Positions 19,619 through 55,968 of a stretch of 64,000 bases of DNA are shown here, in pieces (position 1 is the stretch's first letter; each line of letters starts with the position of its first letter). The translations under genes were made by a program, and so were the position numbers. This DNA is from Arachis hypogaea (Eukaryota > Streptophyta > Magnoliopsida > Fabales > Fabaceae). Location: positions 69,728,910 to 69,792,909 of the forward strand of contig NC_092052.1 of the NCBI RefSeq assembly GCF_003086295.3, given 5' to 3'. The notes under the pieces were generated by a model. That model made no database searches and was not told the DNA's origin. It saw nothing but the letters and a program-made list of their open reading frames with translations.

Positions 19619-19638
19619 TGGTTTAAGTGCGAGAGAAT

Positions 19639-20602
19639 TGATGAATCCATATTTTACGATATATTTTGGTTTGATTTGAGTGGATTCCATCACATAAACC
19701 CACATTTATTCACCTAAATAGCATGCTTATGAGATTTCTTCCTAAATTGTGCTTAAAAGTGAAAACATGCTCTCTAGTGCTTAATTTTAATCAATTCTAT
19801 TCACTTTAATCCCATTTGGTGCCTTGATGTATTTGTTAAGGGATTTTAGGTTTCCAAGGCAAGCATGGGTTGGATAAGTGAGGAGAAGAGCATGCAAAAA
19901 GAGAAGAAACCATGAAGAAATGAGATTTGGAAAGCTGCCAGCCCTGACCTCTCGGTACTAAATTGATTATAACTTGAGCTATAGAGGTCCAAATGAGGCG
20001 GTTCTAGCGGCATCGGAAAGCTAACATTTGGGGCTTCGATTTATATATAATTCACTATAGTGGATATAAGTCTACCTATGCAGACGCACACAACTTGTGC
20101 GTATGCACAGGTCAGAAAACAGCAAGTGTGTGGATGCACACATCTATGCGTTCGCACAGGTCCTTGCACGTGAGCTCATTAATGCAAATCGCTGGGGGCG
20201 AATTCTGGGCCTCCAAAATCCAATCCAACTCATTTTCTGAAGCTATTTAAGGCCGAAGTGAAGAGGAATGAAGGGGGGCAATTAGCTTTAGCTTTTGTTA
20301 TGTTTTCTCTTAGTTTCTAGAGAGAGAAGCTCCCCCCTCTCTCTAGAATTAGGGTTTCTTAGTTTATTTTCTTGTAATTTCTATGTTTAATTCTTCTTTC
20401 TATTTACTTTTTCTTGTCATTTATTATAATTTCTTCTTTATTCTTCTTCATTTCTCTTGTTATTACCTTTATTTTGTCATTTTTATGCTTATGGATACTC
20501 TTTGTTATTTTAATTTCAATTAATGCAAGTTTATGTTTTCATGTCATTTATTACTTTCTGTAGTTGTTATCTCTACTTTTCTTGCTTTTGGTAGTTAGAC
20601 TT
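19639..20602 (+). repeat. Element C 3' LTR, first part
   Basis: Same as 14942-15905 with scattered substitutions, many of them C to T or G to A in the palindromes. It is interrupted at 20602 by element D, with target duplication GACTT at 20598-20602. Confidence 0.9.
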
Positions 20603-22272
20603 TGGTGCACGAAATTGCGATCATCAACAATGGCGCCAACTACTTGGAGCTCTCAAACGTGAATCACACTTTGTCACAATTCTGCACAACTAACCAGCAA
20701 GTGCACTGGGTCGTCCAAGTAATAAACCTTACGTGAGTAAGGGCCGATCCCACGGAGATTGTCGGCTTGAAGCAAGCTATGGTCACCTTGTAAATCTCAG
20801 TCAGGCGGATTCAAATGGTTATAGAGTTATAATAATTAAAAGACAAATAAAACGTAAAATAAAGATAGAGATACTTATGTAACTCATTGGTAAGAATTTC
20901 AGATAAGCGTATAGAGATGCTTTTGTTCCTCCTGAACCTCTGCTTTCCTGCTGTCTTCATCCAATCCTTCATACTCCTTTCCATGGCAAGCTTTATGTTG
21001 GGAATCACCGTTGTCAATGGCTACATCCCGTCCTCTGTGTGAAAATGGTCCAATGCGCTATCACTGCATGGCTAATCATCTGTCGGTTCTCGATCATACT
21101 GGAATAGGATTTACTATCCTTTTGTCGTCTATCACTACGCCTAGCACTCATGAGTTTGAAGCTCGTCACAGCCATCCCTTCCCAGATCCTACTCGGAATA
21201 CCACAGACAAGGTTTAGACTTTCCGGATCTCGGGGAATGGTCGTCCATGGGTTCTAACTTATACCACGAAGATTCTAATATCTCAGACTCGGTCCCCTGT
21301 ATTAGATATCTAAGAGATATTCATTCTATCTCATCTTCATGTAGGACGAAAGTGGTTGTCTGGCACGCGTTCATAGGTGAGAATGGTGATGAGCGTCACA
21401 TAATCATCACATTCATCATGTTCTTGGGTGCGAATGAATATCTTAGAATAGGAATAAGCTTGAATTGAATAGAAAAAGAATAGTACTTTGCATTAATTCA
21501 TGAGGAACAACAGAGTTCCACACCTTAATCTATGGAGTGTAAAAACTCTACCGTTGAAAATACATAAGAACAAGGTCCAGGCATGGCCGAGAGGCCAGCC
21601 CCCAAAACATGATCAAAGGATCAAAAGATAATCCAAAGATGTAAATACAATAGTAAAAAGTCCTATTTATATTAAACTAGTTACTAGGGTTTACAGAAAT
21701 GAGTAATTTATGCAGAAATCCACTTTCAGGGCCCACTTGGTATGTGCTTGGGCTGAGCATTGAGCTTTACACGTGTAGAGGCTTCTCTTGGAGTTGAACG
21801 CCAGTTTGTAACCTGTTTCTGGCGTTTAACTCAACTTTGCAACCTGTTTCTAGCGTTTAGCTCCAGAATGTAGCATGAAACTGGCGTTGAATGCCAGTTT
21901 GCATCATCTAAACTCTGGCAACGTATGGACTATTATATATTGATGGAAATCCCTGGATGTCTACTTTCCAACACAATTGAGAGCGCGCTATTTGGAGTTC
22001 TGTAGCTCCAGAAAATCCACTTTGAGTGTAGGGAGGTCAGAATCCAACAGCATCTGCAGTCTTTCTTCAACCTCTGAATCTGATTTTTGCTCAAGTCCCT
22101 CAATTTTAGCCAGAAATTACCTGAAATCACAGAAAAATACACAAACTCATAGTAAAGTCCAGAAATGTGAATTTTATTTAAAAACTAATAAAAATATACT
22201 AAAAACTAACTAAATCATACTAAAAACTATGTAAAAACAATGCCAAAAAGCGTATAAATTATCCGCTCATCA
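20603..22272 (-). repeat. Element D 3' LTR (complete, 1670 bp)
   Basis: On the minus strand it starts TGATGAGCGGATAATTTATA and ends TTTCGTGCACCA. U3 carries four palindromes at 21787, 21819, 21850 and 21881, then a TATA box at 21662-21671 (TATAAATAGG on minus). The U5 side holds a block shared with E1, E2 and I around 21180-21240. Confidence 0.9.
21787..21897. repeat. 31-bp phased palindromes, element D 3' LTR
   Basis: Four 17-bp imperfect palindromes of the form CTGGCGTTNAACGCCAG start at about 21787, 21819, 21850 and 21881, a pitch of 31-32 bp. The 5' LTR has the same set at about 29630-29735. Confidence 0.88.
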
Positions 22273-23383
22273 CAACACCAAACTTAAATTGTTGCTTGTC
22301 CCCAAGCAACTGAAAATCAAATAGGATAAAAAAAAGAGAATATACTATAAATTCCTAAATATCAATGAAACTTAGCTCCAATCAGATGAGCGGGACTTGT
22401 AGTTTTTTGCCTCTTGAATAGTTTTGGCATCTCACTTTATCCATTGAAGTTTAGAATGATTGGCATCTATAGGAACTCAGAGTTCAGGTAGTGTTATTAA
22501 TTCTCCTAGTTCAGTATGTTGATTCTTGAACTCAGCTACTTTATAAGTCTTGGTCGTGGCCCTAAGCACTTTGTTTTCTAGTATTACCACCGGATACATA
22601 AATGTCACAGACACATAACTGGGTGAACCTTTTCAGATTGTGACTCAGCTTTGCTAAAGTCCCCAATTAGAGGTGTCCAGAGTTCTTAAGCACACTCTTT
22701 TTTTGCTTTGGACCTTGACTTTAACCGCTCAGTCTCAAGTTTTTACTTGACACCTTCATGCCACAAGCACATGGTTAGGGACAACTTGGTTTAGCCGCTT
22801 AGGCCAGGATTTTATTCCTTTAGGCCCTCCTATCCACTGATGCTCAAAGCCTTGGATCCTTTTTATTTACCCTTGCCTTTTGGTTTTAAGGGCTATTGGC
22901 TTTTTTTGCTCTCTTTTTCTTTTTTCTTTCTTTTTTTTCGCTATTTTTTTTCTACAAGCTTTTGTATTCACTGCTTTTTCTTGCATCAAGAATCATTTTT
23001 ATGATTTTTCAGATTATCAAATAACATGTCTCCTTTTTCCTTATTCTTCAAGAGCCAACATATTTAACATTCATAAACAACAACTTCAAAAGACATATGC
23101 ACTGTTCAAGAATTCATTCAGAAAACAAAAAGTATTGTCTCCACATCAAAATAATTAAACTAGTTTCAAGGATGAATTCGAAACCATGTACTTCTTGTTC
23201 TTTTGTTTTTAAAACAGTTTCCATTTAAGAGAGGTGATGGAGTCATAGGACATTCATAGCTTTAAGACATAGACACTTAAACACTAATGATCATATAGTA
23301 AAGACACAAACATAATTAAACATGAAGCATTGAAACCGAAAACAGAAAATAAATAGACAAGGAGATTAAGGAATGAGTCCACC
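22273..23383 (-). other. Element D 3' untranslated region
   Basis: No gene. On the minus strand it matches E2 57660-58219 and E1 59764-60270, including the GGGCCTAAAGGAATAAAATC segment near 22810-22830. A hairpin at 22291-22310 (GTTGCTTG, loop GGGA, CAAGCAAC) stands 18 nt before the 3' LTR and is followed by TTTAAGTTTGGTGTTG. A T-rich run (22890-22970) gives meaningless hydrophobic frames. Confidence 0.8.
22291..22310 (-). promoter_or_regulatory. GNRA-type hairpin before the element D 3' LTR
   Basis: Perfect 8-bp stem GTTGCTTG/CAAGCAAC closing the tetraloop GGGA on the minus (element RNA) strand. It is one of two copies in D; the other precedes ORF3 at 23866-23885. Confidence 0.65.
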
Positions 23384-23810
23384 TTAGTGAGGGTGGCGTC
23401 TTCCTCTTCTTGAAGAACCAATGGTGCTTTTGAGCTCCTCTATGTCTTTTTCTTGTCTTTGTTGCTCCTCCCTCATAGCTCTTTGATCTTCTCTAATTTC
23501 ATGGAGGATGATGGAATGCTCTTGGTGCTCCATCCTTAGTTGTCCCATGTTGGAACTTAATTCTCCTAGGGAGGTGTTGATTTGCTCCCAATAATTTTGT
23601 GGAGGAAAGTGCATCCCTTCAGGCATCTCAGGGATTTCATAGTGAGGAATTTCCTCATGCTCTTGTTGAGGTCCATGATCTCTTGTTTGCTCCATTATTT
23701 TCTTAGTGATGGGCTTCTGAGATGGATCTTTCCATCTCCCATGACTCAGAGGTGGAAGCAATTGCCTTCCCTTTCCTCTTTCTTGAGATTTTTCTGGCCT
23801 TAGGTGCCAT
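23384..23810 (-). pseudogene. Element D ORF3 remnant (core deleted)
   Basis: The Met at 23810 opens MAPKARKISRKRKGK, alike in position and composition to the E2 ORF3 start (MAPKGKQ). A frameshift follows, and the next part (23384-23761) matches only the C-terminal coiled coil of E2 ORF3, with YWEQINTSL aligned to YWEYLETSV and a Glu/Gln-rich helix. The roughly 240-residue central domain is missing. The product, if any, would be a basic peptide plus a coiled coil. The function of the full protein is unknown. Confidence 0.7.
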
Positions 23811-23865
23811 TAATGGTTATGGAAAAACAAAAAAGCAATGATTTTACCACACCAAACTTAAAAGG

Positions 23866-23885
23866 TTTGCTCGTCCCCGAGCAAA
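23866..23885 (-). promoter_or_regulatory. Hairpin before ORF3 of element D
   Basis: On minus TTTGCTCG pairs with CGAGCAAA around the GNRA loop GGGA. E2 has TTTGCTTG/CAAGCAAA at the same place (55949-55968), so one U-A pair is replaced by C-G, a compensatory change that favours a structured RNA. Confidence 0.65.
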
Positions 23886-24317
23886 AGAAGAAAGAAAGTA
23901 GTAGAAGAAGAAAAAAATGGAGGAGATGGGGGAAGAAGATGTATTCGGCCAAGGAGAAGAAGAGAGGGTTGTGTTGTGTGAAAATGGAGAAGGAGTGAGG
24001 GGAGGTGTAGGGTTCGGCCATTAGAGTTGGGTTTGGGAAGGAAATTAGTTTGAATTTTGAAGGTAGGTGGGGTTTATGGGGAAGAGAGGATGGATGTGAG
24101 TGGTGAAGAGGTGATGGGAAAGAGTGATTGAGGTGATTGGTGAAGGGTATTTGGGGAAGAGAGTTATGAAAAGGTGTGAAGAGGAGAGAAGAAAATGTGG
24201 GGATTCTGTGGGGTCCACAGATCCTGTGGGATCCTGTGGGGTCCACAGATCAAGTGGAGTTAAGGACTTAACATCCCTACTCCAATTAGGCGTGTAAAAC
24301 GCCCTTGTTAAGCAATC

Positions 24318-24489
24318 CTGGTGTTTAACGCCAGACTGCTGCCTGTTTCTAGCGTTAAACACCCAAATGTAGCTTGTTTCTAGCGTTTAACGCCAGGCAG
24401 ATGCTTGTTTATGGGGTTAAACGCCAGCTTGGTGCCTGTTTCTGGCGTTAAACGCCAGACAGATGCTTGTTTCTGGCGTTAAACGCCAG
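24318..24489. repeat. 31-bp phased palindrome array before ORF3, element D
   Basis: Six copies starting at 24318, 24349, 24380, 24410, 24442 and 24473, so intervals of 31, 31, 30, 32 and 31 bp. The best are exact CTGGCGTTAAACGCCAG. The linkers contain a recurring TGCTTGTTT. Confidence 0.92.
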
Positions 24490-24636
24490 ACTGCTCTCCT
24501 CCAGGGTGTGCTATTCTTAATGCTGTTTTTCATTCTGTTTTTGATTTTTCAGTAGTTTTTGTGACTTCACATGATCATCAACCTAATAAAACACAAAATA
24601 ACAAAAAGAAAATAAAATAGATATGATTAAATAACA

Positions 24637-24652
24637 TTGGGTTGCCTCCCAA
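24637..24652 (-). promoter_or_regulatory. Post-pol hairpin, element D
   Basis: TTGGG/CCCAA closes the loop AGGCAA on the minus strand, preceded by AAGTGCTTG. It is the equivalent of 4125-4142 in element A. It shows that the deletion removed RT to integrase but left the pol end signal. Confidence 0.5.
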
Positions 24653-24701
24653 CAAGCACTTCTTTAATGTCAATAGCTTGACAGTGAGCTCTCATGGAGC
24701 C

Positions 24702-25787
24702 TCACAGATAATCAGAGCAAGGTTGGAACCTCCCAACACCAAACTTAGGGTTTGAATATGGGGGTTCAACACCAAACTTAGAGTTTGGTTGTGGCCTCCC
24801 AACACCAAACTTAGAGTTTGACTGTGGGGGCTTTGGTTGACTCTGCAGTGAGAGAAGCTTTTCATGCTTCCTCTCCATGGTTACAGAAGGAGATCCTTGA
24901 GTCTTAAACACAAGGTTGTCCTCATTCAGTTGAAGGACTAACTCTCCTCTGTCCGCATCAATCACAGCTCTTGCTGTGGCTAGGAAGGGTCTTCCAAGGA
25001 TGATGGATTCATCCTCTTCCTTCCCAGTGTCTAGGATTATGAAATAAGCAGGGATGTAAAGGCCTTCAACCTTTACTAACACGTCCTCTACTTGTCCATA
25101 AGCCTATTTTCTTGAGTTGTCTGCCATCTCTAATGAGATTCTAGCAGCTTGCACCTCAAAGATCCCTAGTTTCTCCATTATAGAGAGTAGCATTAAGTTT
25201 ATTCCTGACCCCAGGTCACACAGAGCCTTCTCAAAGGTCATGGTGCCTATGGTACAGGGTATTAAGAATTTGCCAGGATCCTGTTTCTTTTGAGGTAATT
25301 TCTGCCTATCCAATGCATTCAGTTCATTGGTGAGCAAGGGGGGTTCATCTTCCCAAGTCTCATTACCAAATAATTCGGCATTCAGCTTCATGATTGCACC
25401 AAAGTATTTAGCAACTTGCTCTTCAGTAATGTCTTCATCCTCTTCAGAGGAAGAATACTCATCAGAGCTCATGAAGGGCAGAAGGAGGTTCAATGGAAAC
25501 TCTATGGTCTCTAGATGAGCCTCAGATTCCTTTGGTTCCTCAAAGGGATACTCCTTATTGGACATTGAACGTCCCAGGAGGTCTTCCTCACTAGGATTCA
25601 CGTCCTCCTCCTCCCTTGTAGGTTCGGCCATGATGATCAAATCAATGGCCTTGCACTCTCTCTTTGGATTTTCTTTTGTATTGCTTGGGAGAGTACTAGG
25701 AGGAGTTTCAGTGACTCTTTTACTCAGCTGGCCCACTTGTGCCTCCAAATTCCTAATGGAGGACCTTGTTTCATTCATGAAACTCAC
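24702..25787 (-). pseudogene. Element D aspartic protease region
   Basis: In frame with gag. An N-terminal coiled segment (RNLEAQVGQLSKRV), an acidic linker (25400-25650), the protease site CDLGSGINLMLLS (about 25170-25210) and the block ILGRPFLATARAVIDADRGE (about 24940-25000) identify a retropepsin. DLGS replaces the usual DLGA. After the domain the frame carries three repeats of a KFGVG peptide, each coded by a copy of the AAGTTTGGTGTTG motif (24731-24815), then stops at 24702. No RT follows. A TAG near 25104 breaks it. Confidence 0.85.
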
Positions 25788-25853
25788 AGTGGCCTTAGAT
25801 AGATCAGAGACTATATTTGCTAAGCTAGATGGGTTCTGCTCAGAATTCTCTGT

Positions 25854-27032
25854 CTATTGCTGAGTGGATGATGGAAAAGGTTTGCTATTGCTAAACCTAT
25901 TTCTTCCATCATTATTAAAGCCTTGTTGAGGCTTTTGTTGTTCCTTCCATGAGAAATTTGGATGATTTCTCCATGAGGGATTATAGGTGTTTCCATAGGG
26001 TTCACCCATGTAATTCACCTCTGCTATTGTAGGGTTCTCAGGATCATAAGCTTCTTCTTTAGAAGATGCCTCTTTAGTACTGTTGGATGATTCCTTCAAT
26101 CCATTCAGACTCTGAGAGATCATATTGACTTGCTGAGTCAATATTTTATTCTGAGCTAATATGGCATTCAGAGTATCAATTTCAAGAACTCCCTTCCTTT
26201 GAGGCGTCCCATTACTTACAGGATTCCTCTCATAAGTGTACATGAACTAGTTATTAGCAACCATGTCAATGAGTTCTTGAGCTTCTGCAGGCATTTTCTT
26301 TAGGTGAATGGATCCACCTGTAGAATGGTTCAATGACATTTTAGATAATTCAGACAGACCATCATAGAATATATCCAGGATGGTCCATTCTAAAAGCATG
26401 TTAGAAGGACACTTTTTGGTCAGTTCCTTGTATCTCTCCCAAGCTTCATAGAGGGATTCACCTTCTTTCTATCTGAAGGTTTAAACATCCACTCTAAGCT
26501 TGCTAAGCTTTTGAAGAGGAAAGAACTTGGCTAAGAAAGCCATGACCAGCTTATCCCAAGAGTTCAGGATATCCTTAGGTTGAGAGTCCAACCATATTCT
26601 AGCTCTGTCTCTTACAGCAAACGGGAAAAGCATGAGCCTGTAGACCTCGGGATCAACCCCATTGGTCTTAACAGTATCACAGACTTGCAAGAATTCAGTT
26701 AAGAACTGAAAGGGATCTTTGGATGGAAGTCCATAAAACTTGCAATTCTGTTGCATCAGAGAAACTAATTGAGGTTTCAACTCAAAATTGTTTGCTCCGA
26801 TGGCAGGGATTGAGATGTTTCTTCCATGTAAATTGGAATTAGGTGCAGTAAAGTCACCAAGCATCTTTCTTGCATTGTTATTATTTTTGGCCATGTCTCC
26901 TTCTTTTTCAAAAATTTCTGTTAGATTTTTTCCAGAGAGTTGTGCTTTAGCTTCCCTTAGCTTCCTCTTCAGAGTCCTTTCAGATTCAGGATCAGCTTCA
27001 ACAAGAATGTTCTTATCCTTGTTTTTGCTCAT
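25854..27032 (-). pseudogene. Element D Gag
   Basis: Starts at the Met at 27032 (MSKNKDKNILVEADPESER). The gag domain follows with ARIWLDSQPKDILNSWDKLV and FLAKFFPLQKLSKL, then YEAWERYKEL just past a stop. The C-terminal part is Asn/Gln-rich (25854-26243) and runs on into the protease in the same frame. No CX2CX4HX4C knuckle was seen. In-frame stops lie at 26481, shortly after it (around 26469), before 26243 and at 25854. Most look like CAA or CAG codons turned into TAA or TAG. Confidence 0.87.
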
Positions 27033-28618
27033 ATGAAAAAGAAGAAAACAGAAAAGAAAATTTGGAATCCTCTATGTCACAGTATAGAGATTCCTTATGT
27101 AAGTATAAGAAGAGAATAATGGAGGAAGGAAAAGATAAGAATCCAAATACAAGGGAGAGGAATGAGTTCGAATTCTTGGGTGAAAGAGGGGTGTTAGTAG
27201 ATGAATAAATAATTAGAAAGAGATGAGGAGAAGAGAAATTCGAAAATTAGATAAATTAAAATAAAAGTATTTTTGTTTTTAAATTGAATTTAAAATAAAA
27301 AATAAAAATTAAAGTTCGAAAATTAAGAAAGGAAAATAGAATCAAATTAAATTAAATTTAAAACAATTAGTTAATTTAAAAAGGAATTTTGAAAAAGAGG
27401 GAAGGGATTTTCGAAAATTAGAGATAGAATTAGATAGGTAGTTTTGAAAAATATATGATTGAAATAGTAAACTTTTAAAATCAAACAAAAAGTCAAGTAG
27501 TTAATTGAAAAAGATTTGAAAATCAATTTTTGAAAAGATAAGAAGTTAGAAAAGAAGTTGGAAAAGATTTTGAAATTGATTTTGAAAAAGATGTGATTGA
27601 CATTTATTTTGAAAAAGATTTGAAAAAGAAATTTAAAAAGATTTGATTTTTGAAATCAAAGTTGATTACTTGACTAACAAGAAACTAAAAAGATATGATT
27701 CTAGAGTTTAAAGATTGAACCTTTCTTACTAGGCAAGTAACAAACTTAAAAATTTTGAATCAATCACATTAATTGTTAGCATTAATTTCGAAAATATGTG
27801 ATAAAAATAAGAAAAAGATTTTTGGAAATCATTTTGAAATTTTCGAAAATCATAAAAGAAAAATGAAAAAGATTTGATTTTTGAAAAAGATATAAATTTT
27901 TTTTAAAATGAAAATTTGATTTGACTCATAAGAAACAATTAAATTTAAAAACTTTTTGACTAAGTCAAACCAAATTTTCGAAAATTTATGAGAGAATAAG
28001 GGAAAGATATTTTTTTATTTTTGAATTTAAATGAGGGAAGAGAAAAACATAAAAATGATGCAAAACATAAAAATTTTGGATTAGAACAAAAGATGCATGC
28101 AAGAACACTATGAATGTCAAGATGAACACCAAGAACACTTTGAAGATCATGATGAACATCAAGAACTTATTTTTGAAAAATTTTCAAGAAAAGAAAAACA
28201 TGCAAGACATCAAACTTAGAGATTTTTCATGTTTAGACACTATGAATGAAAAAATAACAAAAGACACAAAGCAAGAAAATATGAAGATCAAACAAGAAGA
28301 CTTGTCAAGAACAACTTGAAGATCATGAGGAACACATGCATGAGTTTTCGAAAAATGCACAAATTTTAAAAACATGCAATTGACACCAAAATTAAAATTT
28401 GACTCAAGACTCAAACAAGAAACAAAAAATTTTTGGTTTTTATGAATTTATAAGAATTTTTTTGTTTTTGTTTTTTCGAAAATTATTTTAGGAAAAACGA
28501 AAAAGAAGAAATTTTTTTGTATTATTTTCGAAAATAAGAAATAAAAAAGCTTAAAAATAAAATAAAATTACCTAATCTGAGCAACAAGATGAACCGTCAG
28601 TTGTCCAAACTCGAACAA
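27033..28618 (-). other. Element D 5' leader
   Basis: AT-rich, no gene. Words like TTTTGAAAAAGAT and the palindrome ATTTTCGAAAAT recur many times, as in the shorter E2 leader (49471-50269). A leader of 1.6 kb is long and may hold packaging signals. Confidence 0.65.
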
Positions 28619-28636
28619 TCCCCGACAACGGCCCCA
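28619..28636 (-). other. Primer binding site, element D
   Basis: On minus TGGGGCCGTTGTCGGGGA, two changes from the element C site, 6 nt after the 5' LTR. Confidence 0.75.
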
Positions 28637-28642
28637 AAAACT

Positions 28643-30083
28643 TGGCGCACGAAATTGCGATCATCAACAATGGCGCCAACAACTTGGAGCTCTCAAACGT
28701 GAATCACACTTTGTCACAATTCCGCACAACTAACCAGCAAGTGCACTGGGTCGTCTAAGTAATAAACCTTACGTGAGTAAGGATCGATCCCACGGAGATT
28801 GTCGGCTTGAAGCAAGCTATGGTCACCTTGTAAATCTCAGTCGGGTGGATTCAAATGGTTATAGAGTTATAATAATTAAAAGACAAATAAAACGTAAAAT
28901 AAAGATAGAGATACTTATTTAACTCATTGGTGAGAATTTCAGCTAAGCGTATAGAGATGCTTTTGTTCCTCCTGAACCTCTGCTTTCCTGCTGTCTTCAT
29001 CCAATCCTTCATACTCCTTTCCATGGCAAGCTTTATGTTGGGCATCACCGTTGTCAATGGCTACATCCCGTCCTCTCTGTGAAAATGGTCCAATGCGCTG
29101 TCACTGCACGGCTAATCATCTGTCGGTTCTCGATCATACTGGAATAGGATTTACTATCCTTTTGCGTCTGTCACTACGCCCAACACTCGCGAGTTTGAAG
29201 GTCGTCACAGCCATCCCTTCCCAGATCCTACTCGGAATACCACAGACAAGGTTTAGACTTTTCGGATCTCGGGAATGGCCGTCCATGGGTTCTAACTTAT
29301 ACCACGAAGATTTTAATATCTCGGACTCGGTCCCCTGTATTAGATATCTAAGAGATATTCATTCTATCTCATCTTCATGTAGAACGAAAGTGGTTGTCAG
29401 ACACGCGTTCATAGGTGAGAATGGTGATGAGCGTCACATAATCATCACATTCATCATGTTCTTGGGTGCGAATGAATATCTTAGAATAGGAATAAGCTTG
29501 AATTGAATAGAAAAACAATAGTACTTTGCATTAATTCATGAGGAACAACAGAGCTCCACACCTTAATCTATGGTGTGTAGAAACTCTACCGTTGAAAATA
29601 CATAAGAACAAGGTCCAGTCTTGGAGTTGAATGCCAGTTTGTAACCTGTTTCTGGCATTTAACTCCACTTTGCAACCTGTTTCTGGCGTTTAACTCCAGA
29701 ATGCAACATGGAACTGGCGTTGAACGCCAGTTTGCGTCGTCTAAACTCGGGCAAAGTATGGACTATTATATATTGCTGGAAAGCCCTGGATGTCTACTTT
29801 TCAACGCAATTAAGAGCTCCAGAAAATCCAGTTTGAGTGCAGGGAGATTAGAATCCAACAGCATTTGCAGTCCTTCTTCAACCTCTGTATCTGATTTTTG
29901 CTCAAGTCCCTCAATTTCAGCCAGAAATTACCTGATATCACAGAAAAACACACAAACTCATAGTAAAGTTCAGAAATGTGAATTTTATTTAAAAACTAAT
30001 AAAAATATACTAAAAACTAACTAAATCATACTAAAAACTATGTAAAAACAATGCCAAAAAGCGTATAAATTATCCGCTCATCA
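28643..30083 (-). repeat. Element D 5' LTR with promoter deletion (1441 bp)
   Basis: Same ends as the 3' LTR, except that its inner end reads GCGCCA. It lacks the sequence corresponding to 21581-21785, about 205 bp that include the TATA box, and it also lacks some 20 bp near 29816. The four palindromes (about 29630-29735) remain. Confidence 0.88.
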
Positions 30084-31103
30084 GACTTTATTTTTAATGC
30101 ATTTTAATATTATTTTATTCTCATGCACACCAAGTATTTGACAAAAAGCTTGGCTTAGTTTCTACTTAGTTTTTCCTCACTCTTGGCTTGAAATTATTGA
30201 CTTTGGTGATCCTTGAGTCATTGATGTCAATTCTTGTTTGATACATTAGAGTAGTTAGTTAATTTGGTTTCCATTGACTCTATGTGACCCCTAGTGTTGA
30301 CACAGGGCTTATGGATTGAAATTAACTATGCCTATTTGACTTGTCTTCGATGTAAGGTTGACTAAGTAGGATTAACTCTTCATAATCATCATATATTTGT
30401 GGTCAATGTCTAGGATAGGTAACCTTAGCTCTCAATTACTTGCCAAGAGGTTTCTTGCATTTTAAGTTTCTTTTACTTGCATTTAAATTGCTTTGACTTT
30501 TATTGCGTTGACTTTTATTTGCTTTGATGTTTAATTTCTTGCATGTTTAATTTTTACACTCTTGGTTGAGAAATTGGATGTTTGGGTGAAACGGAGTTGT
30601 GGATGTCCATTCTGCATTGTGTGAGAATGGTTAATTGAGTTGGTTTCTATTGACGCTAGTCTTTCACTAAGTAATTAGTGAGTTGACTAGGACTTATGGA
30701 TTGAGATCAATTACACATTTTGACTAATTCTCAAGAAGGATTAACTAGTTTGTATTGCTTCCACACAATTGCCATGTTTGTGGTCCACAACTAGGATAGG
30801 AAGCCTAGATTACTCAATTCTTGCCAAGAGTTGCCATTTACATTCCTTGCATGTTCAATTTACTTTCTTGCTATTTACGCTTATTGCTCTCTTGCTTGCT
30901 TTCAATTCCCATTTCCCCATAGCCAATAATTGTGCACTTCATTGCAACTCCTAGGGAAGACGACCCAATGTTTAATTACTCTCGGTTACTTTGTTTTGAA
31001 TTTATTATTTGATAGTGAGGACTCATTGTTGCTTTGGACTATGCTACCGACGACTTGATTCTTGTTTTGATTGATTCTAAACCGACATAAATTCTCGTTA
31101 TCA
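30084..31103 (+). repeat. Element C 3' LTR, second part
   Basis: Begins with the second GACTT duplication, then continues the LTR sequence of 15906-16924 and ends TTCTCGTTATCA. Together with 19639-20602 it makes one LTR of about 1.98 kb. Confidence 0.9.
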
Positions 31104-47290: not shown

Positions 47291-47682
47291 TGATAAACCA
47301 CTATTTTATGGTATATTTTGGATTGAATTGAGTGGATTTTGTCAATTATTCTCTCACTTATTCATGTAAATTGCATGTTTTTAAGTTTCCTTTCTAATCT
47401 TGTGCTATAATTGAAAACATGCTTCTTAGACCTTAAAATCGCTAATTTTTAATCCCCTATCCATTCGATGCCGTGATATGTGTGTTAAGTGATTTCAAGG
47501 TTTATAGGGCATGAATGGCTTAGAGGATGGAAAGGAAGCATGCAAAAGTGGAAGAAACACAAGAAATTAAGGATTTCAGAAGCTGGTAGCGACGCGTACG
47601 CGTGACTGGAGCAGCGTCCACATGACGCATATGCGTGGCCAATGAATTATCAACGTGACGCATGTGCGTGGCTGACGCATAC
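47291..47682 (+). repeat. LTR F, first part
   Basis: Starts TGATAAACCACTATTTTATG as LTR A does. U3 palindromes at 47590-47680 are degenerate (GACGCGTACGCGTGAC, then GACGCATGTGCGTGG). Cut by E1 at target CATAC (47678-47682). Confidence 0.85.
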
Positions 47683-47906
47683 TGATGAGCGGATAATTTA
47701 TACGCTTTTTGCCATTGTTTTTACATAGTTTTCAGTATAATTTAGTTAGTTTTTAGTATATTTTTATTAGTTTTTAAATAAAAATCACATTTCTGGACTT
47801 TACTATGAGTTTGTGTATTTTTCTGTGATTTCAGGTATTTTCTGGCTGAAATTGAGGAGGGCCTAAAGGAATAAAATCCTGGCCTAAGCGGCTGAACCAA
47901 GCTGTC
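47683..47906 (+). mobile_element. Element E1, left remnant: truncated 5' LTR plus a scrap of 3' interior
   Basis: The first 170 or so bases are the start of a TGATGAGCGGATAATTTATA LTR. At about 47854-47860 it jumps to sequence that in E2 lies at 57658-57705, near the 3' end of the interior. Everything between is deleted. CTGTC at 47902-47906 is the target duplication of E2. Confidence 0.88.
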
Positions 47907-49446
47907 TGATGAGCGGATATTTTATACGCTTTTTGGGGTTAATTTCATATAGATTTTAGTATGTTTTAGTTGGTTCTTAGTTTATTTTCATTAGTTTCTA
48001 GGAAAAATCCATATTTCTGGACTCTACTATGAGTTTGTGTGTTTTTCTGTATTTTCAGGTATTTTCTGGCTGAAATTGAGGGAGCTGAGCAAAAATCTGA
48101 TTCAGGCTGAAAAAGGACTGCTGATGCTGTTGGATTCTGACCTCCCTGCACTCAAAATAAATTTTCTGGAGCTACAGACCTCTAAATGGCGTGCTTTCAA
48201 TTGCGTTGGAAATTAGACATCCAGGGCTTTCCAGCAATATATAATAGTCCATACTTTGCTCAAGGATAGATGACGTAAACTGGCGTTCAACGCCAGCTCT
48301 CTGCCCAATTCTGGCGTCCAGCGCCAGAAACAAGTTGCAAGTTGGAGTTCAACGCCAGAAAAGGATCCAAAGCTGGCGTTGAACGCCCAAAACAGCCCCA
48401 GGCACGTGAGAAGCTTTAGTCTCAGCCCCATCACACACCAAGTGGGCCCCATAAGTGGATTTCTGCACTATCTGTTATAGTTTACTCATTTTCTGTAAAC
48501 CTAGGTTACTAGTTTAGTATTTAAACAACTTTTAGAGATTTATTTTGCATCTCATGACATTTTTTTAGATCAAAACTTTATACTCTTTGACGGCATGAGT
48601 CTCTAAACTCCATTGTTGGGGGTGAGGAGCTCTGCTGTGTCTCGATAAATTAATGCAAGTATTTCTGTTTCCCATTCAAACATGCGTATTCCTATCTAAG
48701 ATATCCATTCGCGCCTAACTATGGAGAAGGTGATGATCAGTGACACTCATCACCTTCCTCAATCCATGAATGTGTGTCTGACAATCACTTCCGTTCTACA
48801 TCAGATTGAATGAATATCTCTTAGATTCCCTAATCAGAATCTCCGTGGTATAAGCTAGATTGATCGCGGCATTCATGAGAATCCGGAAAGTCTAAACCTT
48901 GTCTGTGGTATTCCGAGTAGGATTCTGGGATTGGATGGCTGTGACGAACTTCAAACTCGCGAGTGCTGGGCGTAGTGACAGACGCAAAAGGATAGTAAAT
49001 CCTATTCCGGTACGACTGAGAACCTGTAGATGATTAGCCGTGCGGTGACAGCGCACCTGGACCCTTTTCACTGGAAGGGTGGATGGTAGCCATTGACAAC
49101 GGTGATCCACCTACACACAGCTTGCCATAGGAGGACGTGCGTGCATGAATCAGAGGACAGAGGAAAGCAGAGATTCTGAAGACAAAGCATCTCCAAAACT
49201 CCAACATATTATCCATTACTGCATAACAAGTAACCTTTAATCCATGCTCTCTTGTTTATTCGCAACTCAACTGATAAATATAATTGACTTCCTGACTAAG
49301 AATTGCAAGATAACCATAGATTGCTTCAAACCAACAATCTCCGTGGGATTCGACCCTTACTCACGTAAGGTATTACTTGGACGACCCAGTGCACTTGCTG
49401 GTTAGTGGTACGAGTGTGAAAAGTGTGATTCACAAGTCGTGCACCA
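47907..49446 (+). repeat. Element E2 5' LTR
   Basis: Starts TGATGAGCGGATATTTTATA and ends GTCGTGCACCA. Four phased palindromes lie at 48280-48389, then a TATA-like TATTTAAA at 48519-48526. The U5 block CTAAACCTTGTCTGTGGTAT (48891-48910) is shared with D, E1 and I. Confidence 0.92.
48280..48389. repeat. 31-bp phased palindromes, E2 5' LTR
   Basis: Starts at 48280, 48311, 48342 and 48373: three intervals of exactly 31 bp. The first is a perfect CTGGCGTTCAACGCCAG. Confidence 0.92.
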
Positions 49447-49452
49447 AGTTTT

Positions 49453-49470
49453 TGGCACCGTTGCCGGGGA
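49453..49470 (+). other. Primer binding site, element E2
   Basis: TGGCACCGTTGCCGGGGA, 6 nt after the LTR, one change from the element C site (tRNA-Asp type). Confidence 0.85.
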
Positions 49471-50269
49471 TTGTTCGTGTTTGAACACTTGACGGTTTAT
49501 TTTGTTGCTTAGATTAGGAAAAATTTTTCTTTTTGGTTTGGAGTCTCTTATTATTGTTTTTGGTTAAAATTTTAGAATCCTTATTTTCTCTTTCAAAAAA
49601 AAAATTTTTTTTCTTCAAAACAAGTGTTACGTTCACTGCCCAATTGGCTAGAGCGTTGGTGTAAGTTCGTGGCAATTTGGTATACTCTTTTCAAAATAAT
49701 AATTTCTCTATTAAATTTTGTGCCAAACTTTAAGTTTGGTGTTTTCTTGTTGATTTCCCTTTGGTTTTTGAAAATTTTAGTTTTGTTTTCTAAAAATTTT
49801 AAGTTTGGTGTTCTTTCTTCATGTTCTTGTGCTCTTGTGAGTCTTCAAAGTGTTCTTGAGTTTCCCTTGTGTCTTGATCTTAAAATTTTTAAGTTTGGTG
49901 TTCTTTGGTGTTTTCCCTCCAAAATTTTCAAAAAAACAAGGAGCATTAGATCTAAAAATTTTAAATCTTGTGCTATCTTATTGTTTTCCTCTCTCCTCTC
50001 TAAATTCAAAAATATCTTTTCTCTCTATTTTAAAGTAAATTTTCGAAATTTACCTTTAAAATTCAGATTTTTATTTCAAAATTTAAAACCTTTTTCAAAA
50101 AAAAATCATCATATCCTTTTCAAAACTTCCTAACCACTTCCTCTCTCCTCAATTTTTTCGAAAATTTTCAATCATTTTTATTTATTTTATTTTAATTTAT
50201 TTCATTTTCGAAATAAATAAATAAATAAAAATAATTTTTTTTATTTTACATCATCTCCCTTTCTCTATC
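49471..50269 (+). other. Element E2 leader with repeated AAGTTTGGTGTT motif
   Basis: No gene. The motif occurs at about 49731, 49801 and 49891, the first inside the perfect palindrome CCAAACTTTAAGTTTGG (49723-49739). Further on are AT-rich stretches with TTTTCGAAAATTTTC. The open frame at 49624-50133 is a low-complexity Phe/Leu/Ser run without domain features. Confidence 0.65.
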
Positions 50270-51136
50270 ATGGATCTAAGCGGAAATGAACAGTCCAGGA
50301 GGACTCTGGGGTTATATGCTAACCCCTCTACTGCTTCATATGGGAGTAGTATCTGCATACCCTCCATTGGAGCCAGTAGCTTTGAGTTGAATCCTCAGCT
50401 CATTATCATGGTGCAGCAAAGTTGCCAGTATTCCGGTCTTCCACAGGAAGAACCTACAGAGTTTCTGGCACAATTTTTACAAATTGCTAACACAGTACAT
50501 GATAAGGAAATAGATCAGGATGTCTACAGACTATTACTATTTCTATTTGCTGTAAAAGATCAGGCTAAGAGGTGGTTAAATAACCAACCTAAGGCCAGCA
50601 TAAGGACATGGAAACAGCTGACAGAAAAATTCCTGAATCAATACTTTCCCCCAAAACGGATGACACAGCTAAGGCTGGACATCCAAGGCTTTAAACAAGG
50701 AGATAATGAATCTCTTTATGATGCCTGGGAGAGATACAGAGAGATGCTACGAAAATGCCCCTCTGAAATGTTTTCAGAGTGGGTTCAGTTAGACATCTTC
50801 TATTATGGGCTTGCAGAAGGAGCTCAGATGTCTCTAGATTACTCAGCTGGTGGATCTATCCACATGAGAAAGACAATTGAAGAGGCTCAAGAGCTCATTG
50901 ATACAGTTGCCAGGAATCAGCATCTGTACCTAAGCAGTGACCCTTCCATGAAAGAAGAGGTTAAAACAGTAACTGCTGAACTCAGCCCTGTAAAACAAGC
51001 TGCTGAATTCAATCAGCAATTAGACTTTCTAACAAAGCAGTTAGCCGAATTCAAGGATAAATTACAAGAGACAAGGATGGCTAATATAAATATGGAAGAA
51101 CAATTGAAGCAAACAAAGCAGCAGCTGTCAAGATAA
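50270..51136 (+). CDS. Element E2 Gag
   Basis: Gag builds the particle that packages element RNA. 288 codons from the Met at 50270 (MDLSGNEQSRRTL). The retrotransposon gag domain spans residues about 45-200 (KRWLNNQPKASIRTWKQLTE, KFLNQYFPPKRMTQLRLDI, LYDAWERYREML), and residues 235-288 form a Gln/Lys/Glu-rich coiled coil. There is no zinc knuckle. The frame ends in TAA at 51134-51136 and reopens at once with VQLRSGKAL, a block usual in uninterrupted Gag-Pol of this group. The stop is therefore either a CAA-to-TAA mutation or, less likely, a read-through point. Confidence 0.88.
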   Translation: MDLSGNEQSRRTLGLYANPSTASYGSSICIPSIGASSFELNPQLIIMVQQSCQYSGLPQEEPTEFLAQFLQIANTVHDKEIDQDVYRLLLFLFAVKDQAKRWLNNQPKASIRTWKQLTEKFLNQYFPPKRMTQLRLDIQGFKQGDNESLYDAWERYREMLRKCPSEMFSEWVQLDIFYYGLAEGAQMSLDYSAGGSIHMRKTIEEAQELIDTVARNQHLYLSSDPSMKEEVKTVTAELSPVKQAAEFNQQLDFLTKQLAEFKDKLQETRMANINMEEQLKQTKQQLSR

Positions 51137-53140
51137 ATAACAGAAGAATGCCAAGCAGTTCAATTAAGAAGTGGGAAAGCATTAAATACCCCACCTCAAG
51201 GTAGCAAAGAGCTAAGGAATGAGCAAACCACCCAAAATTCACCTGAGGACAGTAAGAGCCCAGGGAAAAGTAATTTTGGCGCTAAAATGCCAGAAATCTG
51301 GTGGAAGGCTGGCGCTGAACGCCCAGACCATGCCCAAGACTGGCGTTCAGCGCCAGTAACAAGCAAGAACTGGCGTTCAACGCCAGAAACAAGCAAGGAT
51401 CTGGCGTTGAACGCCCAAAATGGGCACAGTTCTGGCGTTCAGACGCCAGGAACAGACAAGAAGTTGGCATCTAACGTCACTCCAGCTTCTAACTCTGGCA
51501 CTCAATTGCCAGTGAAGGATCTGGCACACACAAGTGCTGATAACAACCCATCTAAAAAGGCTTCTTCAACCACTTCTGTAGGAAATAAACTTACAGCAAC
51601 TAAGGTTGAGGAATATAAAGCCAAGATACCTTATCCTCAAAAACTCCGCCAAGAGGAGCAGGATAAGCAATTTGCTCGCTTTGCAGATTATCTCAGGACT
51701 CTTGAAATAAAGATTCCATTTGCAGAGGCACTTGAGCAAATACCTTCTTATGCCAAGTTCATGAAAGAGATCTTGAGTCATAAAAAGGATTGGAGAGAAA
51801 CTGAAAGAGTTCTCCTCATTGAAGAATGCAGTGCAGTCATTCTGAAAAGCTTTCCTGAAAAGCTTAAAGACCCTGGGGGTTTTCTGATACCATGCACATT
51901 AGAAGGTAATTGCACCAAGACAGCTTTATGTGATCTTGGGGCAAGCATTAACCTAATACCTGCATCCACTATCAGAAAGCTTGGCTTAACTGAAGAAGTT
52001 AAACCAACCCGGATATGTCTCCAACTTGCTGATGGCTCCATTAAATACCCATCAGGCGTGATTGAAGACATGATTGTCAGAGTTGGGCCATTCGCCTTTC
52101 CCACTGACTTTGTAGTGCTGGAAATGGAGGAGCACAAGAGTGCTACTCTCATCTTAGGAAGACCCTTCCTAGCAACTGGACGAACTCTCATTGATGTCCA
52201 ACAAGGGGAAATAACCGTGAGAGTCAATGATGATGAGTTTAAGTTGAATGCTGTCAAAGCCATGCAGCATCCAGACACATCAAAAGACTGCATGAAAGTT
52301 GATCTTATTGACTCTTTGGTAGAAGAGATCAACATGGCTGAGAGTCTCGAATCAGAGTTGGAAGACATCTTTAAAGATGTTCAGCCTGATTTGGAGGATT
52401 CAGAGGAGATGAAAGAGCCTCTGAAATTTCCTCTGGAAGAGGAAAAACCTCCTAAACCCGAGCTCAAACCATTACCACCATCCCTGAAATATGTATTTCT
52501 GGGAGAAGGTGATACTTTTCCAGTGATCATAAGCTCTGCCTTAAATCCACAGGAAGAGGAAGCACTTATTCAAGTGCTAAGGACACACAAGACAGCTCTT
52601 GGGTGGTCCATAGGTGACCTTAAGGGCATAAGCCCAGCTAGATGCATGCACAAAATCCTATTGGAGGATAATGCTAAACTAGTGGTTCAACCACAGAGGC
52701 GGCTAAATCCAGCCATGAAGGAAGTGGTGCAGAAAGAGGTCACCAAATTACTAGAGGCTGGGATTATTTATCCTATTTCTGATAGCCCCTGGGTGAGCCC
52801 TGTCCAAGTCGTCCCAAAAAAGGGAGGCATGACAGTGATTCATAATGAAAAAAATGAACTAGTTCCTACAAGAACAGTTACAGGGTGGCACATGTGTATT
52901 GACTACAGAAGGCTCAATACAGCCACCAGAAAGGATCATTTTCCTTTACCATTCATAGACCAGATGCTAGAAAGACTGGCAGGTCATGATTATTACTGCT
53001 TTTTGGATGGCTACTCAGGCTATAATCAGATTGCAGTAGATCCCCAGGATCAAGAGAAAACAGCATTCACATGTCCATCTGGAGTGTTTGCTTATAGAAG
53101 GATGCCATTTGGGCTGTGTAATGCGCCTGCAACCTTCTAG
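51137..53140 (+). pseudogene. Element E2 protease and N-terminal RT
   Basis: Continues the gag frame. Residues coded at 51300-51460 are made of the palindrome array and give repeats like DWRSAP and NWRSTP. The retropepsin core follows: CDLGASINLIPAS (about 51937-51975) and ILGRPFLATGRTLIDVQQGE (52150-52210). After an acidic, Pro-rich linker comes the RT (HKILLEDNAKLV, MCIDYRRLNTATRKDHFPLP, CFLDGYSGYNQI, RRMPFGLCNAPATF). TAG at 53138-53140 stops it where element A keeps Gln. Confidence 0.92.
51309..51450 (+). repeat. 31-bp phased palindromes inside the E2 gag-protease frame
   Basis: Five clear copies at 51309, 51340, 51370, 51401 and 51432 (intervals 31, 30, 31, 31), with two worn copies after (about 51465 and 51495). 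The frame stays open through all of them. Confidence 0.92.
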
Positions 53141-54181
53141 AGATGCATGCTCTCTATTTTCTCTGATATGGTGGAAAAATTTCTGAAAGTCTTCATGGAT
53201 GACTTCTCAGTATATGGAGACTCATTCAGCTCCTGTCTTGATCACCTGAAACTTGTCATGAAGAGATGCCAAGAGACCAACCTAGTCTTAAACTGGGAAA
53301 AATGTCACTTCATGGTGACTGAAGGGATTGTCCTTGGGCATAAAATCTCAAACAATGGAATAGAGGTGGATCAAGCAAAAATAGAGGTAATTGAAAAATT
53401 ACCACCACCTGCCAATGTTAAGGCAATCAGAAGCTTTTTGGGGCATGCAGGATTCTATAGGAGGTTTATAAAGGATTTTTCAAAAATCGCAAAACCTCTA
53501 AGCAATCTGCTAGCTGCTGACACGCCATTTGTGTTTGACACAGAGTGTCTGCAGGCGTTTGAAACGCTGAAAGCTAAGCTGGTCATAGCACCAGTTATTT
53601 CTGCACCAGACTGGACATTACCATTTGAGCTAATGTGTGATGCTAGTGATCACGTCATTGGTGCAGTATTGGGACAGAGGCATGACAAGCTTCTGCATGT
53701 CATTTATTATGCTAGTCGCGTTTTAAATGATGCCCAGAAAAATTACACAACCACAGAAAAAGAATTACTTGCAGTGGTTTATGTCATTAACAAGTTCAGA
53801 TCATACTTAGTAGGATCAAAAGTGATTGTATATACTGACCATGCTGCTCTTAAATATCTACTCACAAAGCAGGATTCAAAACCCAGGCTCATCAGATGGG
53901 TGTTGCTTCTGCAAGAGTTTGATATAGAAATAAGAGACAGAAAAGGGACAGAGAACCAAGTGGCTGATCATCTGTCCCGGATAGAGCCAGTAGAAGGGAC
54001 GTCCCTCCCCTCCCTTGAGATCTCTGAGACTTTTCCGGATGAGCATTTATTTGCCATACAGGAAACACCATGGTTTGCCGATATTGCAAACTATAAAGCT
54101 GCAAGGTTCATACCCAAGGAGTACAACAGGCAACAAAAGAAAAAAATTAATCACTTATGCAAAGTACTACTTGTGGGATGA
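53141..54181 (+). pseudogene. Element E2 RT C-terminal part and RNase H
   Basis: The RT catalytic motif FMDDFSVYG is intact (53190-53220), followed by the connection and RNase H with [31 protein letters not shown] and VADHLSRIE. The frame is lost near 54130 by a shift in an A-run (AAAAGAAAAAAA). Otherwise this domain reads as functional. Confidence 0.92.
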
Positions 54182-55083
54182 ACCCTATCTCTTTAAGAGA
54201 TGTGCAGACAGAATAATCCGTAGGTGTGTTCCTAGAGAAGAAGCGCAGAGGATCCTATGGCATTGCCATGGATCTCAATATGGAGGCCATTTCGGGGGTG
54301 AGCGAACAGCCACCAAGGTTCTCCAATGTGGCTTCTATTGGCCCACACTCTATAGAGATTCCCGAGAGTTTGTACGTAACTGTGACAGTTGCCAAAGAGC
54401 TGGTAATCTGCCCCATGGTTACGCCATGCCTCAACAAGGAATCTTGGAGATTGAGTTGTTTGACGTATGGGGAATTGACTTCATGGGACCTTTCCCACCA
54501 TCATTCTCAAACACTTATATTCTGGTGGCAGTTGACTATGTATCAAAATGGGTTGAGGCCATTGCCACACCCACCAATGATACTAAAACAGTGCTGAAGT
54601 TCCTCCAGAAACATATCTTTAGCAGGTTTGGTGTCCCTAGAGTACTGATCAGTGATGGGGGCACTCACTTCTGCAACAAATAGCTTTACTCTGCCATGGT
54701 TCGGTATGGGATTCACCACAAGGTAGCTACTCCATATCATCCACAAACTAATGGGCAAGCTGAAGTCTCTAACAGAGAATTAAAGAGAATCCTAGAATGA
54801 ACAGTAAGTACCCGTAGAAAGGATTGGGCACGGAGCTTGGATGATACTCTGTGGGCTTACAGAACAGCATTCAAGACCCCTATAGGGACCTCTCCATACC
54901 AACTTGTGTATGGTAAGGCATGTCACCTGCCCGTGGAACTGGAACATAAAGCCTACTGGGCAACCAGATTCCTAAACTTTAATGCCAAATTAGCAGGAGA
55001 AAAAAGATTGCTCCAGCTAAATGAGCTAGAGGAATTCAGATTCACTGCTTTCGAAAATTCCAAGCTTTATAAAGAGAAATAAA
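54130..55083 (+). pseudogene. Element E2 integrase, C-terminally truncated
   Basis: In the shifted frame: [13 protein letters not shown], the zinc region [13 protein letters not shown] and CDSCQRAGN, and the catalytic Asp residues in [10 protein letters not shown] (54470-54500) and [10 protein letters not shown] (54645-54675). The Glu lies in [12 protein letters not shown] (54745-54780). Stops: TAG at 54681, TGA at 54798, TAA at 55081. After [10 protein letters not shown] only a short tail to FEPGQKVLLF remains. The GPY/F end module present in element A is missing, cut near 55150. Confidence 0.9.
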
Positions 55084-55289
55084 AAAAGTGGCATGATAGA
55101 AAGCTGTCATCTAGAATCTTTGAACCAGGACAGAAGGTTCTGCTATTTATATAAATTTGTTTATATAAAGTTCATTAATAACAAGGTAAAAAAATCAATT
55201 GCATAAGTTCACAGGGTTACAGAAGGAATCTGCACACAAAACAGAGAAAAAGAGCTCACTGGTAAGAAAACGCCAGTAAGAGCATGTTT

Positions 55290-55460
55290 TGGGCGTTCAG
55301 CGCCCAAAAGAGGCATCCAGTGGGCGCTGAACGCCAGTAAGGATAGCTATCTGGCGTTCAACGCCAGAAAAGGGCAACAACTGGGCGTTGAACGCCCAGG
55401 AGAGCAGCATTTGGGCGTTGAACGCCCAAAACAGGCAGCGTTTGGGCGTTCAAACACCAG
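55290..55460. repeat. 31-bp phased palindrome array before ORF3, element E2
   Basis: GGCG cores at 55292, 55323, 55353, 55384, 55414 and 55445, so intervals alternate 31 and 30 bp. A half copy precedes at 55267. The dominant form is TTGGGCGTTNAACGCCCAA, slightly different from the LTR version. Confidence 0.92.
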
Positions 55461-55948
55461 GATGATGGGAAGGAGGTAAATTTGTTTCTTCTTCATATTT
55501 TTCATTCTAATTTTAATTTCCATGTTACAAATCATGATTTCTTGTATACACATGTTAAGAACCCTGATTTCTAAAATCCTTAATTTCTAAAAATCCTACT
55601 TTAAAAATATCAAATGTATCTTAATCCATAAGCACAAATCCTCTTTTTCAATCTAATTCAACTCTTTTCCAAAAATCTTTTCAACTCATCAATATCTTTT
55701 TCAAAACTCCACATTATCTTTTTCAAAATCTAGAATTATCTTTTTCAAAAATTTTTCATATCTTTTCAATTTTAAACTATATCCTCTCTTATCATATCTT
55801 CTATCTTATCTTTTCCAAATCAATCTTTTTTATCATATCTTTTCTAAATTTTCGAACCCACCCCCCTCCCTTTAAATATGGGTTTAGCCTCCCTCCCTCC
55901 ATCAATAATTGCACCTAGCTCTCCTTCTATCCCTCTCCTTTCTTTTCT

Positions 55949-55968
55949 TTTGCTTGAGGACAAGCAAA
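55949..55968 (+). promoter_or_regulatory. Hairpin before ORF3 of element E2
   Basis: TTTGCTTG and CAAGCAAA pair around loop AGGA, followed by AAGTTTGGTGTG. The start codon is 40 nt further on. It pairs with the D version at 23866-23885 by a compensatory change. Confidence 0.65.

Follow-up and report, generated by a model that had tools for sequence, protein, structure and literature searches.

Arrays of 17-bp palindromes at a 31-bp pitch in peanut retroelements: possible sites for a symmetric transcription-factor dimer

Three LTR retroelements, D, E1 and E2, lying in a 64-kb stretch of Arachis hypogaea DNA (the window, that is, the whole of the DNA analysed) carry arrays of a 17-bp palindrome that recurs about every 31 bp. 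These arrays occupy three kinds of site: the U3 of the LTRs, the region preceding ORF3, and the gag-protease linker of E2. The sites, their pitch, their place and their pattern of variation are directly seen in the DNA. Starting from these observations, we tentatively propose, with somewhat less than an even chance of being right, that the palindromes are double-stranded DNA sites for a symmetric transcription-factor dimer with an enhancer role in U3. Such a dimer would most likely be a host protein.

The palindrome arrays and the elements that carry them

In the internal spacer of element D, which lies on the minus strand, six palindromes start at positions 24318, 24349, 24380, 24411, 24442 and 24473 (array 24318-24489). 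All five start-to-start intervals are exactly 31 bp, so the strict row of six palindromes described in a previous sequence-only reading stands as it was given. The form built from the commonest base at each position across units is CTGGCGTTNAACGCCAG, with a free centre base (0.10 bits); the six copies differ from it by 1, 4, 1, 2, 0 and 0 mismatches, in order. The copy at 24349, with its four mismatches, stays in the 31-bp register, which bears out the earlier observation that the pitch survives in mutated copies. A degenerate seventh unit is found at 24287-24305. When up to three mismatches were allowed, the 17-mer matched 31 times in the window, against a mean of 0.06 and a maximum of 1 in 100 dinucleotide shuffles, and all 31 matches fell within D, E1 and E2.

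The LTR arrays consist of four palindromes at a pitch of 31 bp and lie in U3. They are present in both LTRs of D (21788-21897 in the 3'LTR and 29621-29730 in the 5'LTR, minus strand), in both LTRs of E2 (48280-48389 in the 5'LTR and 58593-58702 in the 3'LTR, plus strand) and in the sole full LTR seen for E1 (60646-60755 in the 3'LTR, plus strand). All the LTR arrays previously claimed for the three elements were recovered, and the position given for the E2 5'LTR (48280-48373) was right, whereas the starts for D and E1 needed a slight correction: the units of the D 3'LTR begin at 21788, 21819, 21850 and 21881 (formerly 21787 for the first) and those of E1 at 60646, 60677, 60708 and 60739, 2 bp below the values given before. 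The arrays of the D 5'LTR and the E2 3'LTR had been missed. Two further arrays that had been attributed to E2 correspond to 51276-51511, in the gag-protease region, and 55260-55460, before ORF3 (both plus strand), provided that degenerate edge units are included, and these score just 11-13.5 of 16, a score of 11 being also found elsewhere in the window. The first contains eight units at a pitch of 30-33 bp, those at 51276, 51464 and 51495 being degenerate and that at 51432 carrying a one-base central insertion; the second contains seven units at a pitch of 30-31 bp, including the TGGGCGTTNAACGCCCA form, with degenerate units at 55260 and 55443.

Element E2 spans 47907-59758 on the plus strand, between LTRs that are 97% identical (47907-49446 and 58220-59758). 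Its internal region carries, in order, PF03732, PF13650, PF00078, PF17917 and PF17921/PF00665, and its genes are arranged as gag, aspartic protease, RT, RNase H, integrase and ORF3. ORF3 (55909-57102, plus strand) is an extra ORF between the integrase and the 3'LTR; it lies behind the pre-ORF3 array and matches PF20167 (Transposase_32, E=4.6e-43). Among the nine frames covered by the scan, six from E2 and three from D, none matched a second RNase H or the Athila ORF-1 family pfam03078. According to passages of PMC6317226, an additional RNase H (aRH) marks the Tat clade and separates it from Athila, and only 16% of Athila elements carry pfam03078. The domain order of E2, with no second RNase H in these frames, fits the Athila branch, and D, E1 and E2 would be Athila-type (OTA) Ty3/gypsy elements. 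Among 40 relatives of the E2 protease-RT frame (first 260 residues), 16 bore an Arachis name and took 15 of the top 16 places, which supports Arachis as the host; no relatives of the ORF3 and RT-RNaseH frames were confirmed in viral contigs. As for the surroundings, E2 is flanked by parts of an E1-like element, with a short LTR start on its left (47682-47857) and 3' internal DNA plus an LTR on its right (59759-61836, the E1 3'LTR being 60271-61836).

Element D (20602-30083, minus strand; LTRs 20602-22272 and 28642-30083) resembles E2 in gag (43%) and in the protease region (40%), and tblastn revealed no match in D to the RT-RNaseH, integrase or ORF3 frames of E2 at E 1e-3. D is probably a non-autonomous relative. 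An ORF3 remnant that had been seen by eye in D was dropped, since tblastn finds none. We classed the D internal array as pre-ORF3 on account of an ORF3-leader-like motif downstream, at 23848, ORF3 itself being undetectable in this element. D is apparently nested in the LTR of another element, as 14937-16924 matches at ~95% the pieces that flank it (19633-20603 and 30083-31103). A second palindromic repeat, CCAAACTTAGAGTTTGG-like and of the same 8-1-8 design as the main palindrome, is found by the protease frame of D (24735-24821). Its AACACCAAACTTA word appears three times, at 24735, 24768 and 24801, at a 33-bp pitch that is a multiple of 3 and translates as KFGV repeats; a perfect single copy of the repeat is present at 49723. 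With 0-1 mismatch, AACACCAAACTTA also occurs at 22274, 23848, 55973, 58206 and 60257, adjoining there an inverted repeat of the TTGCTTG/TTGCTCG..CAAGCAA/CGAGCAA type. All three elements have this combination directly ahead of the 3'LTR; E2 additionally has it in the ORF3 leader, and D in the counterpart of that leader.

The LTR arrays are followed by candidate promoter signals. In the E1 LTR the array covers +376 to +485 and a candidate TATA box, TATAAAT, is located 117 bp downstream of it, at +602 (60872-60878, plus strand). TATAAAT likewise stands at +602 in the D 3'LTR. In the E2 LTR, the array begins at +374 and TATTTAA lies 129 bp downstream of it. The segment of the D 3'LTR with the TATA-box word has no counterpart in the D 5'LTR, and this copy of D is thus probably devoid of a working upstream promoter. 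The observed/expected CpG ratio was 0.71-0.93 in four arrays. It was 0.29 over the E2 internal region taken together, but already 0.61 in LTR sequence beyond the array. CpG retention between LTRs was not significant (10/12 vs 44/70, p=0.21; 8/11 vs 40/71, p=0.35), and we dropped the idea that selection keeps the CpG.

The gag-protease array of E2 lies inside the open frame 51137-53140. As 31 is not divisible by 3, its units are translated in different frames, giving WRSAP, WRSTP, LALNAQ and GVQTP. A strict search for these peptide signatures matched six of 40 proteins (P0001, P0002, P0003, P0006, P0008 and P0010), all of which are named Arachis; three of the six showed a single motif, and the 24 proteins without an Arachis name gave no match. 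Absence from the ten other Arachis proteins means little, since many matches are fragments. The pitch was also followed, with a looser motif, in the 13 proteins examined out of 49, which have 2 to 8 recognisable units per translated array, some of the proteins being fragments. In four long gag-protease proteins (P0001, P0002, P0003 and P0006), of which the array part alone was examined, the 12 intervals measured 31 (seven), 30 (two) or 32 (three). Nine short ENA proteins (P0041-P0049), related to one another, also contain translated arrays, and there 36 of 44 intervals were 31, four were 30 and four were 67. In their gag-protease linkers, P0002 and P0003 show GVQT(P/L) in every other unit, as if one extra central base were present (compare unit 51432), a pattern that, going by the peptides, would correspond to a 63-bp in-frame dimer repeat.

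P0041 and P0042 come from ENA contigs shorter than 1 kb. Both translate the pre-ORF3 array of E2 and run on into the ORF3 leader, with a break at the borders of a putative 443-bp intron (55476-55918, plus strand; AG|GTAAAT ... CCTAG|CT) that would connect the array exon to that leader. As both proteins continue across this interval, the array probably belongs to an exon and is probably transcribed, although an intron-less genomic copy would give an identical picture.

Pitch and conservation of the repeat unit

Counting one LTR per element and including degenerate edge units, 21 of the 28 intervals in the window measure 31 bp, four measure 30, and 29, 32 and 33 occur once each. For the comparison of units we used a set of 27, which takes one LTR per element and contains neither insertion units nor degenerate edge units. 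In 11 of these, AAACARG follows the palindrome in the sense of the element, at least once in each of the six arrays (five of the six units of the D internal array and one or two of the four or five units of every other array). Shared by all six, this linker start makes descent from a single 31-bp repeat probable, with the pitch inherited from it. It is also what an ordinary minisatellite would leave behind, that is, a 31-bp repeat with a chance palindrome, multiplied by slippage and by template switching during reverse transcription and copied around the element, in which palindromy would be upheld through mutation, by quasi-palindrome correction, instead of by function. We regard this explanation, taken as a whole, as somewhat unlikely. 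It agrees with the differing number of units between relatives and with the tandem arrays often present in the non-coding portions of large Ty3/gypsy elements outside the chromoviruses, as described in passages of PMC6317226, PMC7004042 and PMC3305785. The indels are no obstacle to it either: the LTR array has none between E2 and E1 or between E2 and D, and the rate outside predicts 2.1 (P0 = 0.13) and 2.3 (P0 = 0.10), respectively, or 0.9 for E1 or D if the rate is taken from U3 only (P0 = 0.41), a deficit no greater than chance. Strict pitch by itself is no proof of selection on spacing.

The two parts of the unit, however, have not changed alike. Palindrome positions hold 1.58 bits and linker positions 0.83 (95% bootstrap interval of the difference, 0.48-0.91), the first half of the linker having 1.07 and the second 0.58, in the 20 units with a true 14-bp linker, a set that omits second LTR copies, last units of arrays, the 13-bp-linker units 51340, 55321 and 55382, the insertion unit 51432 and the degenerate units 51276, 51464, 51495, 55260, 55443, 24334 and 24305. 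Equal conservation throughout the 31-bp unit, which the sequence-only reading had expected of plain tandem duplication, is thus not what the units display. At homologous LTR positions the linkers again outpace the palindromes in divergence, contrary to what a minisatellite would lead one to expect: E2 and E1 are identical at 58 of 64 palindrome positions and at 27 of 42 linker positions (p=0.0012), and E2 agrees with the two D LTRs at 54 and 56 of 64 palindrome positions and at 26 of 42 linker positions in each case (p=0.011 and 0.004). Between E1 and the D LTRs no difference was detected (60/64 and 62/64 in palindromes vs 38/42 each in linkers; p=0.71 and 0.21).

Comparison with the first 373 bp of the LTR, between E2 and E1, tells which part is unusual. 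The palindromes were kept no better than this upstream stretch (58/64 vs 315/373, p=0.25), as the minisatellite explanation would have it, while the linkers were kept worse (27/42 vs 315/373, p=0.0025), so the linkers are the fast part. Also at variance with a mere minisatellite, the coding array stays open though its units use different frames. On these comparisons, plain tandem duplication is insufficient to explain everything. The earlier statement that the array is not a simple tandem repeat has to be qualified accordingly: a tandem repeat it is nonetheless, but one in which the linkers change more than the palindromes.

Variation of the half-sites

We then compared the two arms of the palindrome in the 27 units. 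Half-site variants are mirrored between the arms (r=0.85, permutation p=5e-5), and six variant classes are common to both arms vs 3.0 expected (p=0.013), permutation p values that are too small because the units are related by descent. The left/right counts are 6/8 for C1>T, 5/6 for T2>G, 5/2 for C5>A and 2/3 for T7>C. The two halves of one and the same unit were identical in nine of 27 cases vs 7.0 expected (p=0.18), whereas quasi-palindrome correction predicts matching arms in each unit. An intact GGCGTT core is missing in four of the 27 units, and independence of the halves predicts 3.7. Mirrored variants together with independent halves point to separately read half-sites, unlike an RNA hairpin or the product of quasi-palindrome correction.

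The same data bear on a function at the RNA level, in which the palindromes would form hairpins or pair with each other in element RNA for packaging, dimerisation, translation or splicing, the genomic RNA containing all three array positions; we consider this explanation in its entirety unlikely. Sense-strand folds are far more stable than those of shuffles, with z values of -9.0 for the pre-ORF3 array of E2, -10.9 for the gag-protease array, -8.4 for the E2 LTR, -6.2 for the E1 LTR and -4.5 for the D array (vs -1.6 antisense), but any palindrome folds and this stability is no test. Further arguments for RNA are that complementarity extends one base beyond the palindrome (14/27 vs 8.8 expected, p=0.01), that pair 2-16 leans in the same direction (22 vs 18.2 expected, p=0.05; p values again made optimistic by the shared ancestry of the units), that the gag-protease unit with a one-base insertion retains its arms, and the probably exonic nature of the pre-ORF3 array indicated by P0041 and P0042. 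Against them, pair 5-13 is broken in nine of 27 units with zero double changes and pair 1-17 exhibits no excess of pairing (p=0.29). Covariation, once considered as the main argument, was dropped. C>T and G>A changes are equally common (10 each, no strand bias), which gives no sign of G-U tolerance, and the concordance of halves within units is, as stated, not significant. Moreover, if transcription begins past the TATA box, the 5' end of the RNA would lack the U3 array.

Finally, the arrays might be targets of silencing or anti-silencing, recognised in a VANC/VANDAL-like manner by a protein encoded by the transposable element (perhaps ORF3) or by the siRNA machinery, which we find very improbable. 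VANDALs are DNA transposons. The palindromes of maize Sireviruses are reportedly linked to hairpins and small RNAs, and for this reason the silencing explanation stays alive. Arrays with raised CpG recur across the element, and VANC targets, in passages of PMC5735166 and PMC10398659, are likewise short protein-bound motifs amplified as fast-changing tandem repeats in a transposable element. In the same passages, however, these targets lie in non-coding parts of the element and the VANC motif (YAGTATTAY) is non-palindromic and has a known cognate protein of the transposable element, the term 'palindrom' being absent from the VANC paper PMC5735166, while one of our arrays is coding; PF20167 ('putative plant transposon protein'), the one Pfam family that ORF3 matches, gives no DNA-binding function, a single-sequence structure model of ORF3 reached only pLDDT 36.8, and D retains a six-unit array with no detectable ORF3.

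A possible regulatory layout and its precedents

We return to the reading of the palindromes as dyad sites for a dimer. Each subunit would contact one half-site, about N-T/G-G-G-C/A-G-T-T, with the axis base left free, and the 30-31 bp pitch, ~three helical turns, would place neighbouring dimers on one DNA face, where they could cooperate. The U3 array would act as an upstream enhancer for the LTR promoter, ~120 bp before the TATA box. The copies in the gag-protease linker and in the pre-ORF3 exon would be enhancers at a downstream or internal position, and those before ORF3 might serve its expression. The module would have had a single origin as a 31-bp tandem repeat and then spread through the element family, later selection having kept half-sites more than linkers. 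The protein, its cooperation and activation are the parts that we infer. An enhancer inside a coding sequence is unusual, and this counts against the dyad-site reading. Of the phased binding sites postulated before, the dyad-site pattern and the place in U3 upstream of the TATA box find support; selection on the spacing does not, the zero indels being unexceptional and the pitch probably inherited. The ORF3 product, suggested before as one of the candidate binders, is neither supported nor contradicted in that role.

The nearest precedent for this layout is provided by the RM boxes of Sireviruses (Ty1/copia). In passages of PMC2829016, these are palindromic dyads in 3-14 copies, with a CGG-CCG core in 12 of 13 RMs, lying mostly in the upper half of the LTR, from 200-400 bp in; they precede the TATA box, form CpG islands and recur upstream of the envelope gene, no such linker copies being present in four elements lacking that gene. 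As in those descriptions, several short CpG-containing dyads cluster here in the LTR upstream of the TATA box (from +374 in E2 and +376 in E1), at four copies per LTR, the low end of the RM range, and further copies lie upstream of an envelope-position ORF. Unlike RM boxes, the arrays have a GGCG..CGCC core with a TTNAA centre and no CGG..CCG in the commonest-base form, reside in elements that are Ty3/gypsy by domain order, differ in TATA distance, include a third array in the gag-protease coding region and keep a pitch of 30-31 bp, none being fixed in the RM description in passages of PMC2829016. By membership they are no RM box but may work like one, and, by analogy, they look like a Ty3/gypsy counterpart.

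Tandem repeats are, on the other hand, well known in OTA Ty3/gypsy elements such as Ogre, Retand and GmOgre (passages of PMC7004042, PMC11963269, PMC3305785 and PMC6317226). The arrays described here share with them the short tandem unit, the variable copy number and the superclade, but in those passages the Ogre, Retand and GmOgre arrays are placed after the coding region, ahead of the 3'LTR, with no mention of a palindromic unit, whereas the unit here is palindromic and also found in U3 and in coding sequence. Compared in this way, the arrays are also a variant of the OTA-element tandem repeats. A further parallel is Tnt1, a Ty1/copia element whose BII boxes are situated in U3; we know of no BII boxes before an ORF or in coding DNA. 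As in our elements, several boxes occupy the promoter of a plant LTR retrotransposon, and those of Tnt1 are bound by host factors, which passages of PMC3316501 describe as defence-induced.

Searches elsewhere returned little that resembles the arrays. Viral contigs contained the single palindrome in 17 stretches, one site each, and no palindrome with the sense linker or exact 31-bp pair was found in them; in prokaryote genomes, the paired form (core 13-mers, gap 16-20) occurred in four contigs from two bacterial genera. No published description of these Arachis arrays was found in a literature that was covered partially and mostly at title level. One form of the motif letters was absent from it, a 13-letter piece occurred under titles not about retrotransposons, and 'palindrom' was absent from the passages of the Arachis retrotransposon literature that were checked.

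A more far-reaching version of the dyad-site reading, possible but doubtful, is that the Athila elements of Arachis independently evolved a Sirevirus-like layout. Palindromic dyad boxes would stand in U3 before the TATA box and before the envelope-position ORF, locked to a three-turn pitch and overlaid on gag-protease coding DNA, where the spacer peptide would be whatever the rotating frame gives, and a cooperative dimer would control the genomic RNA and a separate ORF3 message. The basis of this family picture is a few independent arrays in one 64-kb window. If it is true, envelope-class plant retroelements of two superfamilies share a regulatory plan, with boxes at the promoter and boxes before the third ORF, which would imply a common type of host factor or a common need for separate ORF3 expression. 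The coding array would clearly exemplify a spacer in a protein that is dictated by a signal in the DNA. Repeats this simple lend themselves to a direct DNA pull-down, and a factor that turned out to be a host regulator of stress or defence would reveal what activates these elements in peanut.
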